64,000 nt of DNA, from the NCBI RefSeq assembly GCF_004136315.1, contig NZ_CP029562.1, forward strand, positions 1,240,001 through 1,304,000, given 5' to 3'. Below, one piece after another: positions 15,037 through 23,246 of the stretch; the first letter of the stretch is position 1, and every line of letters starts with the position of its first letter. Origin of the DNA: Mesorhizobium sp. Pch-S (GTDB lineage Bacteria; Pseudomonadota; Alphaproteobacteria; Rhizobiales; Rhizobiaceae). A model generated the notes under the pieces. It saw only the letters and a list, made by a program, of their open reading frames with translations, was not told where the DNA came from and did not search any database. The position numbers were made by a program, and so were the translations under genes.

Positions 15037-15927
15037 ATGGATTGGGACGACCTGAAACTGGCGCTCGCCATCGCCCGGCATGGCTCGTTGACCGCGGCGG
15101 CGCGCGCGCTGGGTGTCAGCCAGCCCACCGTCGGCCGCAGGCTGGAGAGTTTCGAGCGGAAGATCGGCGTCAACCTCTTCGACCGCAGCCTGGAAGGCCT
15201 GAAGCCGACGACACTGGGCGCCGCACTTTTCGACAGCCTGTCGATGATGGAGGAAGGCGCGCTCTCCGTCGAGCGGCGCATCGCCTCGCGCAACACCGGA
15301 CTGGAGGGCCCGATCGTGGTGACCAGCCTCGACTGGCTCGCCGATTTCCTGACCGCGCCGATCGTCGCCCGTTTCGCTGCCCTGCACCCGCTGGTGTCGA
15401 TCGAGCTGCTCAACGACACAAGGGTCTTCAACCTGTCGCGCCACGAAGCCGACATCGCCTTCCGCTTCGGCAAGTTCGAGCAGGAGGACCTGGTGGTGCG
15501 CAAGGTGGCGGATGTCGCCTACGGGCTCTATGCGTCCAGCACCTATCTCGAACGCATGGGGCTGCCTGATATCGAGGCAGGCTGTCCGGACCACACGATC
15601 GTCATGCTGCACCAGGCGGCCGGGCATGTCTGCTACCGGGACTGGCTGGCGGCGCTCGCGCCCAACGCGCATGTGCTGATGCGGACGAATTCCGTGCAGT
15701 CGCATATCGCGACGGTGGAAGCCGGCATCGCCATGGGGGTGCTGCCGCGTTATGTGGCAGACCAGAGGGACGGCCTGATCCGCATCGAGACCGGCCGGCA
15801 CGAGCCGGTGCAAAGCGTGCAGATGGGGGTGCATGCCGACATGCGCGACAATCCCCGCGTCCGCGCACTGCTGGACTTCGCCGCGCGGGAGTTCAGGCAG
15901 CTTTCCTCGCTGCTGGCCCCGGGGTGA
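15037..15927 (+). CDS. LysR-family transcriptional regulator
   Basis: The 296-residue protein has the LysR winged helix at its N-terminus (MDWDDLKLALAIARHGSLTAAARALGVSQPTVGRRLESFE) and a LysR substrate-binding domain from about residue 90. The divergent MFS exporter next door is the probable target. The start at 15037 is the ATG that opens the conserved WDDLK segment. Confidence 0.9.
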   Translation: MDWDDLKLALAIARHGSLTAAARALGVSQPTVGRRLESFERKIGVNLFDRSLEGLKPTTLGAALFDSLSMMEEGALSVERRIASRNTGLEGPIVVTSLDWLADFLTAPIVARFAALHPLVSIELLNDTRVFNLSRHEADIAFRFGKFEQEDLVVRKVADVAYGLYASSTYLERMGLPDIEAGCPDHTIVMLHQAAGHVCYRDWLAALAPNAHVLMRTNSVQSHIATVEAGIAMGVLPRYVADQRDGLIRIETGRHEPVQSVQMGVHADMRDNPRVRALLDFAAREFRQLSSLLAPG

Positions 15928-15943
15928 GCAGCGCCAGCGTCTG

Positions 15944-16159
15944 TATCTCCCCCTTGCGGGGGAGAAAGCGATGTCAGCATCTTAGACGAGCACGCCCTTT
16001 AGGGCGGCGCAGGCTAAGTGCTAGAAATCCAAGAGAGGGGATTTGCCGGCACACCGCTCGCAGGCTGTTGTCCTCTGTCCCCCAAACACAGGCCTCTCAG
16101 CTGAAAATCCCCTCTCTTGGATTTTCTACGACTTAGACTGCGCCGCAAGGGGGGAGATA
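15944..16159. repeat. Large compound inverted repeat between LysR and hydrolase genes
   Basis: The 351-bp gap 15928-16278 holds this structure. Outer arms TATCTCCCCCTTGCGG (15944) and CCGCAAGGGGGGAGATA (to 16159) enclose inner arms at 16005-16044 and 16104-16144, which share AAATCCAAGAGAGGGGATTT and its complement. The left side has about 38 extra bases between the outer and inner arms. The loop is about 60 bases. No gene is visible inside. It could be a non-autonomous mobile element or a long RNA hairpin. Confidence 0.75.
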
Positions 16160-16278
16160 AGGTCGCGCATCCCGCCCCCATACGCTTTCGCATGCCCCCT
16201 CTGCGATGCTGGCGGATAGACGGCGGCGGGCCACTGTCTGCACGATAATCCTGATTGTCCCTTTTGCAGGATCCTGAA

Positions 16279-18213
16279 ATGCGTCAGCCGAACCCGTCGC
16301 TGCTTGCCCGCAGCGCCCTCATTGCCGCCGCGATGACGGCCGCTGCCATGACAGCCACGCCGGCGTGGTCGGCCGCGTGCACCGTCAAGGTCGATCACGA
16401 CGTGCCAGCCAGAATGCGCGATGGCACGACCCTGCTGGCCGATGTCTATCGCCCTAACGAAGCCGGCACCTATCCGGTGCTTTTGATGCGGCTGCCCTAC
16501 AACAAGAGCGATGCGCAGGCCTTCGTCTATGCCCGGCCGGAAGCCTATGCCTCGCACTGCTACATCGTCGCCATCCAGGACGTGCGCGGCCAGTACAAAT
16601 CCGAGGGCACGTTCTATCCGTTCCGCAACGAGGGTGCCGACGGCTATGACAGCGTCGAATGGGCCGCCGCCCTGCCCGGTTCGAGCGGCAAGGTCGGCAT
16701 GTATGGCTTCTCCTATGTCGGCGCCACCCAATGGCTTGCTGCCGCCGAACGGCCACCGCACCTGGTGGCAATCGCGCCAGCGCAGACCGGATCCGACTAT
16801 TTCAACGGCTGGACCTATGAAGGCGGGGCGCTGTCGCAGGCCTTCGTGCAGTCATGGCCGCTCACATCGGTGGCGTTGTCGGCGTCGCGGCGGCTCGGCA
16901 ACCAGCAGGCGCTGAACGACATCCAGGCTGCCGCCGGCAGGCTTTCGTCGGTCTATGCCCAGTCGCCGCTGTCGCGGCTGCTGCCCGCGTCGCAATACGA
17001 AGACACGGTTGCGCCCTACTACGGCGACTGGATCACCCACAACACCTGGGATGCCTACTGGAAACCCTGGAGCATCCGCGCGCGCTATGACCAGGTCGCC
17101 GTGCCCGCGCTCAACCTCGCCGGCTGGTACGACGTCTTCCTGCGCGGCGGCGTGGAGAACTATTCCGGCATGCGGGAAAGAGGCGGCTCGGACGCGGCGC
17201 GTTCGGGACAACGCCTGGTCATCGGGCCTTGGAGCCACATGCCATGGCTGCAGAAGGTAGGCGAACTGGATTTCGGCGCCGAGGCGAGCAATCCGATCGA
17301 CGCGCTGCTGCTGCGCTGGTTCGACCATTGGCTGAAGGGCGAGGCCAACGGGCTCGACGCCGACAAGCCGGTCCGCATCTTCGTCATGGGGGCCAATCGC
17401 TGGCGCGAGGCCGACAGCTGGCCGCCGGCGGAAGCCAAGACCGTATCGTTCTACCTGCAGAGCCGGGGGCAGGCCAACACCCGCTTCGGCAATGGCAGCC
17501 TGACGGCAGAGAAGCCCGAGGAGCAATTCCAGCAAAAGTGCGCAGCGGTTTTGCGTCCGGAATTGTGTGAAAACAAAGAACCAGAGCGTTTCCGCGTTTC
17601 CGTGAAAAACGGAAACGCTCTGGCCGAACAGGCGGCCGACCAGTACCGCTACGATCCCGCCGATCCGGTGCCGAGCGCCGGCGGGCACTCATGCTGTTCA
17701 CCCGACAGTGCGCCGATCGGCCCGATGGATCAGGCGAACATCGAAGACCGTGCCGACGTGCTTTATTACGCAACGCCACCGCTGGAGCAGGACATGGAGG
17801 TGACGGGGCCGGTCACGGTCGAACTCTACGCGAGCTCGTCTGCCGTCGACACGGATTTCACCGCCAAGCTCGTCGACGTCCATCCCGACGGCAAGGCCTA
17901 CAACCTCGCCAATGGCATCATCCGCGCCAGCATGCGCGAAACCCTCGAGCGCCGCACGCCGATCGAACCGGGCAAGGTCACCAAATATACCATCGACCTC
18001 GGGCCGACATCATCGCTGTTCCAGCGTGGCCACCGCATCGCGCTCGAAATCTCCAGCTCCAATTTCCCGCATTACGACCGCAATCCGAACAACGGCAAGC
18101 TCGACGGTACCGGAGCTCCTGTGGTGGCCGAGCAGCGGGTCCTGCACGACACCGCAAACCCCTCACGGCTGCTGCTTTCCGTCATGCCGAAACCGATCAG
18201 CGCTGCGCCGTGA
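16279..18213 (+). CDS. Exported CocE/NonD-family hydrolase with an in-frame RIME-like insert
   Basis: The 644-residue protein carries a signal peptide (LIAAAMTAAAMTATPAWSA) and the alpha/beta hydrolase core of X-Pro dipeptidyl-peptidase S15 / cocaine esterase enzymes. The likely triad is Ser145 in GMYGFSYVG, Asp285 in LAGWYDVFLRGG and His320 in GPWSHMPW. The C-terminal jelly-roll domain contains EVTGPVTVELYASSS. It should cleave an ester or amide in the periplasm. Residues 415-449 are encoded by a RIME-like element (17521-17623) that keeps the frame open and joins the two domains just before DQYRYDPADPVPS. The ATG at 16279 follows AGGA at 7 bases. Confidence 0.88.
   Translation: MRQPNPSLLARSALIAAAMTAAAMTATPAWSAACTVKVDHDVPARMRDGTTLLADVYRPNEAGTYPVLLMRLPYNKSDAQAFVYARPEAYASHCYIVAIQDVRGQYKSEGTFYPFRNEGADGYDSVEWAAALPGSSGKVGMYGFSYVGATQWLAAAERPPHLVAIAPAQTGSDYFNGWTYEGGALSQAFVQSWPLTSVALSASRRLGNQQALNDIQAAAGRLSSVYAQSPLSRLLPASQYEDTVAPYYGDWITHNTWDAYWKPWSIRARYDQVAVPALNLAGWYDVFLRGGVENYSGMRERGGSDAARSGQRLVIGPWSHMPWLQKVGELDFGAEASNPIDALLLRWFDHWLKGEANGLDADKPVRIFVMGANRWREADSWPPAEAKTVSFYLQSRGQANTRFGNGSLTAEKPEEQFQQKCAAVLRPELCENKEPERFRVSVKNGNALAEQAADQYRYDPADPVPSAGGHSCCSPDSAPIGPMDQANIEDRADVLYYATPPLEQDMEVTGPVTVELYASSSAVDTDFTAKLVDVHPDGKAYNLANGIIRASMRETLERRTPIEPGKVTKYTIDLGPTSSLFQRGHRIALEISSSNFPHYDRNPNNGKLDGTGAPVVAEQRVLHDTANPSRLLLSVMPKPISAAP
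17521..17623. repeat. Complete RIME-like palindromic element inside a coding sequence
   Basis: The first palindrome (GAGCAATTCCAGCAAAAGTG ... CCGGAATTG) is followed by AAACAAAGAACC and the second hairpin (CAGAGCGTTTCCGCG ... GGAAACGCTCTGG). It matches intergenic copies at 23152-23246 and, in part, 7685-7788. It is read through as about 34 residues of the CocE-type hydrolase without a stop. Confidence 0.85.
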
Positions 18214-18259
18214 GGCGCGGCGATTTCGCGAAACCTCAAGACAACCGGACCACGACACC

Positions 18260-19207
18260 ATGAGAATAGATGTACACGCCCATGCCTGGAGCAGCGACTA
18301 TCTGGACCTGCTCGAAGGTTTCGGCAGAAGCGAAGTCGCGGCATACCGCCAGCTGGGCGCCGGCGTGACCGACGATGAACTCGCCACCCGCTTCGCCATG
18401 CTCGATGCCGTCGGCATCGACCTGCAGGTGCTGACGGCGACGCCGCTTTCCCCGCATTTCGAGGATGAGGCAACCGCAATCGCGGCGGCGCGGAAGGTCA
18501 ATGACGACTATGCGGCGCTCGTCAGGCAACACCCCAACCGGTTCCGGGCGATCGCTTCGCTGCCCCTCCCCCATATCGACGCTTCGCTTGCCGAGCTCGA
18601 CCGGGCGATCTCGGAGCTCGGCATGCTGGGCGCCTGCATCACCACCTCGGTGCTCGGCCGTTCGATCGCCGACGCGCAATTCGAGCCACTTTACCGCGAA
18701 CTCAACCGCCGGCAGAGCGTGCTGTCGGTGCACCCTGCCGGCCATGGCGCGCATTCGCCGCTGATCACGGAGCATCAGCTGACCTGGTCGATCGGCGCGC
18801 CGGTCGAAGACACGGTCGCCGCCATGCAGCTGATCCTGAAGGGCATCCCGAGCCGCTTCCCCGATATCAAGATCATCATCCCGCATTTCGGCGGGCTGCT
18901 GCCGCTGACGCTGGAAAGGATCGACCAGCACGTCGCCTGGGAGGCGCCCGGAACCCCGGAAAAGCCGAGCCTTGCCGCGCAACGCCTGTGGTACGACACG
19001 GTCGGACACGACCACGTACCGGCGCTGCGGGCAGCAGTCGAAACGTTCGGCGCCAATCGGCTGCTGTTCGGCACGGACTTCCCCTTCCAGCCCGGCGAAT
19101 TCTTCGCAACCACCGTCGACTACATCGAGCGGGCCGGGCTGGCCCGGCGGGATGTCGAGGCGATCCTCGATCGGAATGCGGGACAGCTTTTCAAGCTGAG
19201 TGAGTAG
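18260..19207 (+). CDS. ACMSD-type amidohydrolase/decarboxylase
   Basis: The 315-residue protein starts with the metal-binding MRIDVHAHAW (HxH) and has further ACMSD-family features: VLSVHPAGHGAHS, IKIIIPHFGGLLP and LLFGTDFPF. The family includes aminocarboxymuconate-semialdehyde decarboxylase and other metal-dependent decarboxylases or hydrolases acting on aromatic-derived acids. It follows the CocE-type hydrolase by 46 bases on the same strand, so the two may share a transcript. The specific substrate is unknown. Confidence 0.85.
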   Translation: MRIDVHAHAWSSDYLDLLEGFGRSEVAAYRQLGAGVTDDELATRFAMLDAVGIDLQVLTATPLSPHFEDEATAIAAARKVNDDYAALVRQHPNRFRAIASLPLPHIDASLAELDRAISELGMLGACITTSVLGRSIADAQFEPLYRELNRRQSVLSVHPAGHGAHSPLITEHQLTWSIGAPVEDTVAAMQLILKGIPSRFPDIKIIIPHFGGLLPLTLERIDQHVAWEAPGTPEKPSLAAQRLWYDTVGHDHVPALRAAVETFGANRLLFGTDFPFQPGEFFATTVDYIERAGLARRDVEAILDRNAGQLFKLSE

Positions 19208-19777: not shown

Positions 19778-20785
19778 TCACAGCCAGCCATTCTTCCTGA
19801 AGCGCCAGTAGAGGAAGACGCAGATGCCGGCGATCGCGGCCAGGACGGTCGGGTAGCCATATTCCATCTTCAGTTCCGGCATGTCGTTGAAGTTCATGCC
19901 GTAGATGCCGGCAAAAGCTGTCGGCACCGCCAGGATGGCGGCCCAGGAGGCGAGCTTCTTCGAGATCGCCGTCTCCTGGCTCTGGCCGACGAGCAGGCTC
20001 GCCTCGAAGGCAAAGGCCAGCACTTCGCGCAGGGAATCGATCTTTTCCTGCACCGTGCGGATGTGGTCGGTGACGTCGCGGAACAGCGGATGCATGTCGG
20101 CGTCGATCTGCGGCAGCTCGGAGCTGGTCAGACGGCGGCAGACCTCCACCAGGGGCAGTGCCGCGTTGCGCAGGCGCAGGAGGTCGCGCCGCAGCATGTA
20201 GAGGCGCTCGATCGCCTTGGCGTCCATGGGCTTGACCAGCACGCCGTCCTCGATCTCCTCGACCTCGTCCTCGATCTGCTCCAGCACCGGGAAGTAGTTG
20301 TCGACGATGAAATCGAGGATGGCGTAGAGGACGAAATCCTCGCCCTTGGCCAGCGACGTCGGGCAACTCTCCCAGTGCTGCCGCACCGTGGCGTAGGAGG
20401 TGGAAGGGCCGTGGCGGACACTGACCAGATAACCCTTGCCGATGAACAGATGCGTCTCGCCGAAGCTGACGCGCTTGTCCACCAGCTGTGCCGTGCGGGC
20501 GACAATGAACAGGGCCTCGCCATATTGCTCGAGCTTCGGCCGCTGATGCGCGTGCTCGGCATCCTCGATGGCCAGATCATGCAGGCTGAACTGCGCCTGC
20601 ACGCGCCGCAACAGGTCGCGGTCGGGTTCGAGCAGGCCTATCCAGACGACATGGTCCTTCTTGCGGGACCATTCGCCGGCTTCCTCGATCGGGATATCGG
20701 CAACGCGTCGCCCGGCGACATAGACGCTCGATGCGACGATGCGGGAATCCTGCGGCCCCGGCGTGAAATCGCGAACATGGTCCAT
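19778..20785 (-). CDS. CorA-family divalent-metal channel
   Basis: The 335-residue protein has a long acidic/helical cytoplasmic part and two C-terminal membrane helices. The first (WAAILAVPTAFAGIYGMNF) carries the GMN signature, followed by NDMPEL and TVLAAIAGICVFLYWRFRKNGWL. CorA proteins are pentameric Mg2+/Co2+ channels of the inner membrane. The ATG at 20785 has GGGAGG about 6 bases upstream; the open frame upstream is only translated 7-bp repeat. It lies downstream of phoR and phoU on the same strand. Confidence 0.93.
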   Translation of the reverse strand: MDHVRDFTPGPQDSRIVASSVYVAGRRVADIPIEEAGEWSRKKDHVVWIGLLEPDRDLLRRVQAQFSLHDLAIEDAEHAHQRPKLEQYGEALFIVARTAQLVDKRVSFGETHLFIGKGYLVSVRHGPSTSYATVRQHWESCPTSLAKGEDFVLYAILDFIVDNYFPVLEQIEDEVEEIEDGVLVKPMDAKAIERLYMLRRDLLRLRNAALPLVEVCRRLTSSELPQIDADMHPLFRDVTDHIRTVQEKIDSLREVLAFAFEASLLVGQSQETAISKKLASWAAILAVPTAFAGIYGMNFNDMPELKMEYGYPTVLAAIAGICVFLYWRFRKNGWL

Positions 20786-20854
20786 CGTCGCCTCCCGAGG
20801 AACCTCAGTCTTCGGCGTAGAGTGAACCTGGTGTGGCGGGATGGCAAGGGAATA

Positions 20855-20944
20855 GGCAGTCGGCAGTCGGCAGTCGGCAGTCGGCAGTCGGCAGTCGGCA
20901 GTCGGCAGTCGGCAGTCGGCAGTCGGCAGTCGGCAGTCGGCAGT
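20855..20944. repeat. 7-bp tandem array (GGCAGTC, about 12.9 copies)
   Basis: Exact GGCAGTC units run without interruption for 90 bases in the gap upstream of the CorA-type gene. A complementary block (GACTGCC and TATTGCC words, 20989-21019) follows about 45 bases later and could pair with part of the array. There are no spacers, so this is not a CRISPR array. Confidence 0.95.
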
Positions 20945-21015
20945 GAGCCGTGCGTCAAACCACCAAATTCGCAATGGGTTTTATTTTCGACTGCCGACTG
21001 CCTATTGCCGACTGC

Positions 21016-23121: not shown

Positions 23122-23151
23122 ATGCACTCCAATCCATCCGGGCGGCCTACC

Positions 23152-23246
23152 GCAATTCCAGTAAAAGTTTGTGACGGTTTACCGTCCGGAATTGCATAAT
23201 AAAGAATAGAGCGTTTCCGCATTTCCGTGAAAAACGGAAACGCTAT
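23152..23246. repeat. RIME-like palindromic element between phoR and ppk2
   Basis: The first palindrome (GCAATTCCAGTAAAAG ... CCGTCCGGAATTGC) is joined by ATAATAAAGAAT to the second hairpin (AGAGCGTTTCCGCATTTCC ... ACGGAAACGCTAT). It occupies most of the divergent promoter region of phoR and ppk2. Confidence 0.8.

Follow-up and report, generated by a model that had tools for sequence, protein, structure and literature searches.

Palindromic insertions read in frame within genes are best known in Rickettsia and Wolbachia, where small genomes under weak selection provide an easy excuse for them; many large-genome rhizobia can be grown and manipulated. Published RIME1 is about 100 bp long and carries two palindromes. 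The rhizobial repeat described here is presumably a RIME (Rhizobium-specific intergenic mosaic element), a name we give it for its size, its two palindromes, its abundance and its hosts, the likeness being one of description and not of sequence. To our knowledge, the Rickettsia palindromic element (RPE) sequence is unrelated to it. Passages of PMC2573895, PMC3233446 and PMC2873474 credit RIMEs to Osteras 1995, and those of PMC2573895 treat them as annotated repeats of rhizobial intergenic regions. The RPE and its Wolbachia counterpart are described in sections of PMC2229807 as hairpin-forming repeats of 105-146 bp that lie in frame in unrelated conserved genes, and one tested RPE-bearing product (Gmk) was still active. 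RU-1/ERIC, RU-2 and RU-3 of enterobacteria and NEMIS of Neisseria are small nonautonomous repeats whose open frames are fused in frame in genes, and RU fusions in superfamily proteins are reported to fall in C-terminal regions and not within conserved domains (sections of PMC2759123 and PMC2229807). No report of a RIME inside a gene was found in the literature searched, which included sections of PMC2229807, PMC10969869, PMC2759123, PMC2573895, PMC3233446, PMC2873474 and PMC2267715 as well as listed titles and abstract openings; the founding Osteras 1995 and Ogata 2002 fell outside this scope, and we therefore make no claim of priority.

The repeat resembles the RIMEs, again by description, in being about 100 bp long, in having two palindromes and in occurring as many dispersed rhizobial copies, mostly outside genes. 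It differs in lying inside coding sequence, and being read in frame there, in a hydrolase gene and in at least six others, although the family otherwise fits an intergenic location (3 of 149 copies in genes). With the RPEs it shares a mode of action only, namely in-frame insertion in several unrelated genes (seven here) that have insertion-free orthologues. The hosts are rhizobia, and the in-gene share of 3/149 contrasts with the nearly half of the first RPEs found in genes according to part of PMC10969869. Unlike the RU fusions, several rhizobial inserts lie inside Pfam matches, and unlike ERIC and NEMIS, which are listed in sections of the literature with target-site duplications, the rhizobial repeat lacks consistent ones. 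Very probably, a 102-bp RIME-type palindromic element entered the coding region for a CocE/NonD hydrolase within a Mesorhizobium lineage, and the in-frame insertions that survive are tolerated and mostly neutral. Such insertion in large-genome rhizobia makes both the cost of the inserted peptide and its recruitment testable.

The features were located in the window, by which we mean the whole stretch of 64,000 nucleotides of Mesorhizobium sp. Pch-S DNA that was analysed. The hydrolase has the domains Peptidase_S15 (PF02129) and PepX_C (PF08530, match 357-631), its N-terminus appears signal-peptide-like, and its closest solved relatives by sequence are cocaine esterases.

Table 1. Features of the hydrolase locus, in positions of the window.
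Feature	Position	Strand	Basis
CDS, CocE/NonD family hydrolase, 644 aa	16279..18213	+	PF02129, PF08530, TIGR00976, homologues
RIME-like element of 102 nt (2-nt uncertainty in placement)	17520..17623	+	homologue gap, covariance model, RNA fold
Left hairpin of element	17523..17566	+	predicted RNA fold; 30-copy alignment columns 6-49 conserved
Right hairpin of element	17581..17623	+	inverted repeat, RNA fold; 30-copy alignment columns 78-101

The predicted RNA fold of the element comprises two hairpins and reaches -45.6 kcal/mol, compared with a mean of -26.4 for shuffled sequences (z -5.8); none of 200 shuffles folded equally well. The arms of the right hairpin (17581-17600 and 17604-17623) are 90% complementary, and the consensus of 30 copies also has two hairpins. 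Bases identical to this consensus number 94 of 102 in the hydrolase copy, and positions 17521-17621 match the covariance model with 124 bits, a score obtained with a model whose 30 copies include the hydrolase copy. At E ≤ 6.2e-10, the same model gave at least 150 full-model matches in the 6.62-Mb Pch-S genome. The initial annotation had proposed a complete RIME-like palindromic element within the hydrolase, which the 102 nt, the two hairpins and the genomic copies confirm. Its extent of 17521-17623, about 103 bp, was right to within a base or two, but the length is 102 nt; three placements (17520-17621, 17521-17622 and 17522-17623) are equivalent and indistinguishable because GG stands at both ends. 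A stop-free, in-frame reading over about 34 residues was also borne out, at residues 415-448, where frame A gives EQFQQKCAAVLRPELCENKEPERFRVSVKNGNAL. The proposed location between the catalytic and C-terminal domains did not survive, since the insert starts about 58 residues into the PepX_C match and is thus inside the C-terminal domain. Its position corresponds to cocaine esterase residues 380-385.

An Rfam scan of 15900-18400 returned no relevant family. When residues 412-451 were used to search the protein database, only the hydrolase itself matched (1 of 11 candidates). Two other genes (416 and 527 aa) carry the peptide, so that the single match reflects the word-based search or the database contents more than rarity. 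Upstream of the gene, nested inverted repeats occupy 15937-16166, with one pair of 20-nt arms fully complementary, and look like another intergenic palindromic element.

Aligning homologues to look for missing residues, as the initial annotation had proposed, revealed a gap of exactly 34 residues (415-448) in 11 of 11 aligned sequences (P0002-P0008, P0010, P0011, P0016 and P0031, which are 11 of the 119 others among the matches listed). Close homologues that carry the residues with no palindrome, named there as counter-evidence, did not appear: the nearest six (P0002-P0007, 76-88% identical) lack the residues. The empty site is also present in the DNA of Mesorhizobium loti LU (L031). There is good support for a real insertion that keeps the frame open. 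Among homologues with DNA, the closest reach only about 82% protein identity, and the insertion is therefore poorly dated. One could suppose that the segment is an old length-variable loop of the family in which a palindrome arose by chance, and the residues right at the junction do vary among homologues. We give this almost no credence: the segment agrees with a genome-wide repeat consensus, no such loop occurs in any of the 11 aligned homologues, and the copies elsewhere in the genome contradict it.

To place the insert in the protein, we used an AlphaFold model computed from 56 sequences (an alignment of 55 homologues), with a mean pLDDT of 83.4 and a pTM of 0.85. The insert is flanked by predicted strands 406-409 and 454-458. 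Per ten-residue block, pLDDT was 96 (401-410), 76, 67, 48, 44 (441-450) and 92 (451-460), so that the values of 44-67 within blocks 421-450 stand against 96 and 92 on either side; the short helices modelled within the insert are of low confidence. The inserted segment is probably a flexible protrusion from the C-terminal beta domain.

None of the 268 columns invariant in the 11 homologues is changed in the window protein, and only one of the 438 columns invariant in P0002-P0007 is. In relative-rate counts with five outgroups, private changes numbered 9-15 in the window protein and 11-18 in P0002; none of the five counts showed a rate excess in the window protein relative to P0002, and the largest chi-square (2.3) disfavoured P0002. 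Compared with M. loti LU, dN was 0.070 and dS 0.615, although most of that time may predate the insertion. These results bear on the possibility that the insertion damaged the enzyme and left a young pseudogene, still free of stops. A search with the first 407 hydrolase residues (E ≤ 1e-80) found a match in only 2 of 146 Mesorhizobium genomes, those of Pch-S and M. loti LU (G084); the gene is therefore patchy in the genus and dispensable. Nevertheless, its 644 codons are all open, the invariant positions are kept, no rate excess is seen, and the protein cluster has 13 member sequences on 4 contigs, so that the inserted form persists in several sequences. We regard the pseudogene as unlikely. 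The enzyme with its insert probably still works, and the insert is likely to be translated and neutral, in line with the tolerated insertion that we favour.

Searching other genomes for in-frame copies, also suggested at the outset, was productive in sister Mesorhizobium genomes and on Rhizobium plasmids. Seven genes, including that of the hydrolase, were confirmed by comparison with insertion-free orthologues, each having gained 34 codons. For the citrate synthase-like gene of Pch-S (L106), the orthologues of G084, G110, G095 and G165 match in two pieces around the element, with 84-93% identity over the larger piece and a DNA gap of 102 nt in 4 of 4. The DsbD_N gene (L078) has the element in Pch-S and G084, while its counterparts in G110, G095 and G165 lack it and are 102 nt shorter; the element lies in the signal-peptide region, and the start codon could lie after it. 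The HupE/UreJ gene of G110 carries the element and its Pch-S orthologue, at 97% identity, does not; the gap is 102 nt relative to G000 and G095 and 103 relative to G084, where one nucleotide is an end gap. The FAD monooxygenase gene of G110 corresponds to empty sites in G084, G095 and G000, each differing by 102 nt, and to a site in G024 that also lacks the element, with a gap aligned as 96 nt. Matched pairs that differ by the insert exist, among them the 97% identical HupE/UreJ orthologues, so that every site provides a ready-made test of how well a loop tolerates new sequence.

The YcaO-like gene was found on Rhizobium plasmids. Among the best 40 of 353 records with a match, the match begins at residue 1 in 7, at residue 23 in 3 and at residue 41, just after the element, in 30; two of the 30 were checked and encode 420 aa, compared with 454. 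In strain CB782 the element in this gene has a 6-nt in-frame deletion. The CtaG-like gene of G095 was compared at the protein level: it encodes 246 aa, compared with 212 in P0123, and the 34 residues are missing from P0123, P0124, P0127 and P0128 and present in P0122. Most of these residues are likewise missing from two distant proteins, P0141 and P0159. This insert is read from the opposite strand of the element, in frame C. In-gene insertion is general rather than unique to the hydrolase.

Three further copies are candidates. One lies in an acyltransferase gene of G033 (L298:1010-2176, minus strand) in frame B, and the two others, in G084, lie in signal-peptide-like regions, one (L412) in a family-5 solute-binding protein and the other (L400) in a beta-barrel protein. 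The acyltransferase frame ends early, after LSYSIYLWHWP, and may possibly be frameshifted.

The 34 residues might instead have been recruited for a function, for example in binding or export, and be kept by selection. The frame is indeed kept where insertions are shared, in DsbD_N in two genomes and in the YcaO-like gene on at least 7 plasmid records, and several cases lie in signal-peptide regions. At the protein level, the inserts drift. Between BT03 and N324, the YcaO-like insert (codons 7-40) differs by 2 synonymous and 13 nonsynonymous changes and codons 41-440 by 44 and 16; between G000 and G084, the DsbD_N element differs by 3 synonymous and 5 nonsynonymous changes and the following 690 nt by 64 and 48, all of these being raw codon-wise counts of single pairs. 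Moreover, the peptide is simply the translated repeat. Recruitment is thus quite improbable, and the figures fit inserts in the YcaO-like and DsbD_N proteins that are tolerated rather than conserved.

We then asked how often copies lie in genes. Of at least 150 places in Pch-S, 149 were scanned (30 loci and 119 stretches, the second unit of a tandem pair not being taken separately) in six frames for an open frame extending at least 90 nt past both ends, with both flanks scoring best as coding in that frame. The scan, which is blind to genes broken by insertion, found 102 open frames, spread over 76 copies; both flanks scored positive in six. An in-gene reading was retained for 3 of the 149, those in the hydrolase, citrate synthase-like (L106) and DsbD_N (L078) genes. 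L148 and L077, whose genes seem to begin only past the element, were rejected, as was L059, where no gene was convincing. Two earlier codon models were dropped because under neither did both sides of the known hydrolase gene score as coding; the one used, a third version, had as training set genes that align with the hydrolase. It called 8 of 8 bins of the hydrolase gene correctly, which is a weak check because that gene (L001) is in the training set, and it ranks candidates but proves nothing. A wider scan covered 117 copies chosen largely for long open frames and so gives no rate. There, L316, L421 and L274 were rejected likewise, L400 was retained as a candidate despite a left margin of -0.046, and L363, L315 and others near zero stayed outside the candidate list.

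On plasmids, 12 places were inspected, chosen from rows naming an annotated feature, and the element lay inside a CDS at one of them, the YcaO-like gene. At the other 11 (L090-L096 and L098-L101), the 3' end of a CDS overlaps the element by 1 to 6 bases, and the tip of the element thus gives or overlaps the stop codon. The initial view that RIME copies in genes are unusual is accordingly right as a rate (3/149 here and 1/12 plasmid places), but the hydrolase copy is no one-off, given at least six other genes with in-frame copies.

Three of the six frames of the consensus contain no stop: A (EQFQEKC...), B (ERFRFSRKRGNAL...) and C (RAFPFFTETRKRS...). The consensus length modulo three is kept in 67 of 149 copies. 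The confirmed in-gene cases use two of the three stop-free frames (A and C). The first six confirmed were all in frame A, but two of them, from G110, had been found with the frame-A peptide as query; use of a single frame by all insertions is ruled out by the confirmed CtaG-like case in frame C and by the candidates L298, L412 and L400 in frame B. Because the usual length of the element is a multiple of three and three of its six frames are stop-free, a share of in-gene insertions would leave the gene open, and those in surface loops, linkers and signal-peptide regions may persist as additions that are tolerated and mostly neutral.

There is no support for an element designed for translation. 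Roughly dinucleotide-preserving shuffles of the consensus had at least three open frames in 51% of 5000 cases, and the four open frames of the hydrolase copy were reached by 56% of its shuffles. Openness is therefore at the level of chance and nothing in the element itself argues for translation; survival of the insertions that keep the frame would be enough to explain the in-frame pattern. The best reading is that the in-gene copies are the few RIME-type insertions to have passed a filter of frame and loop tolerance, and that most are neutral, as with RPEs.

A frame-A peptide search of plasmids found 869 places on 362 records. Among the best matches listed for this peptide in Mesorhizobium genomes, frame-A translations are mostly stop-free in Pch-S, G084, G110 and G095 and often contain one TGA in other Mesorhizobium genomes, a contrast that perhaps marks a difference between subfamilies.

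The distribution and the ends of the repeat complete the description of the family. A DNA search of the Pch-S genome found at least 39 further near-complete places with 86-93% identity, as well as one partial place. Covariance-model matches occurred in 18 of 21 genomes of the relatives set, and repeat matches on 459 of 72,556 plasmid records, of which 275 were from Rhizobium and 135 from Sinorhizobium. Short terminal inverted repeats of the kind by which MITEs are recognised are present, AGAGC/GCTCT in the consensus and GGAGC/GCTCT in the hydrolase copy. Six sites have DNA on both sides, and there the gain amounts to 102 nt, save for 103 (HupE/UreJ relative to G084) and 96 (FAD monooxygenase relative to G024). 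Target-site duplication is inconsistent over these sites: a duplication of 4-6 nt would fit the citrate synthase-like site, CTAG flanks the element on either side at the DsbD_N site, where relatives have CTCG, and the remaining sites have no duplication beyond 2 nt. A Y1 transposase (PF01797) was found in 0 of 5 genomes, with 5 of 14 control genomes positive, and mobilisation by a Y1 (RAYT) transposase is accordingly unsupported.

We lean towards the view that RIMEs are a further alphaproteobacterial family of protein-coding palindromes. They would be still mobile, given an insertion between 97% identical orthologues, and frame-neutral at their usual length; they would repeatedly add a 34-residue peptide, in either of two versions (with three candidates for a third frame), to unrelated Mesorhizobium and Rhizobium proteins, several times in signal-peptide regions, and thereby go on supplying rhizobial proteins with new loops.

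Two copies of the repeat stand head to tail at G000:C1:4809401-4809600 (L085). The window itself holds a second copy at 23150-23246 on the plus strand (77.7 bits), which failed the in-gene criteria in the scan of 149 copies. Short tandem repeats of another kind occur at about 20830-20950, where TADCRLP is repeated in the translated ORF 19778-20974.
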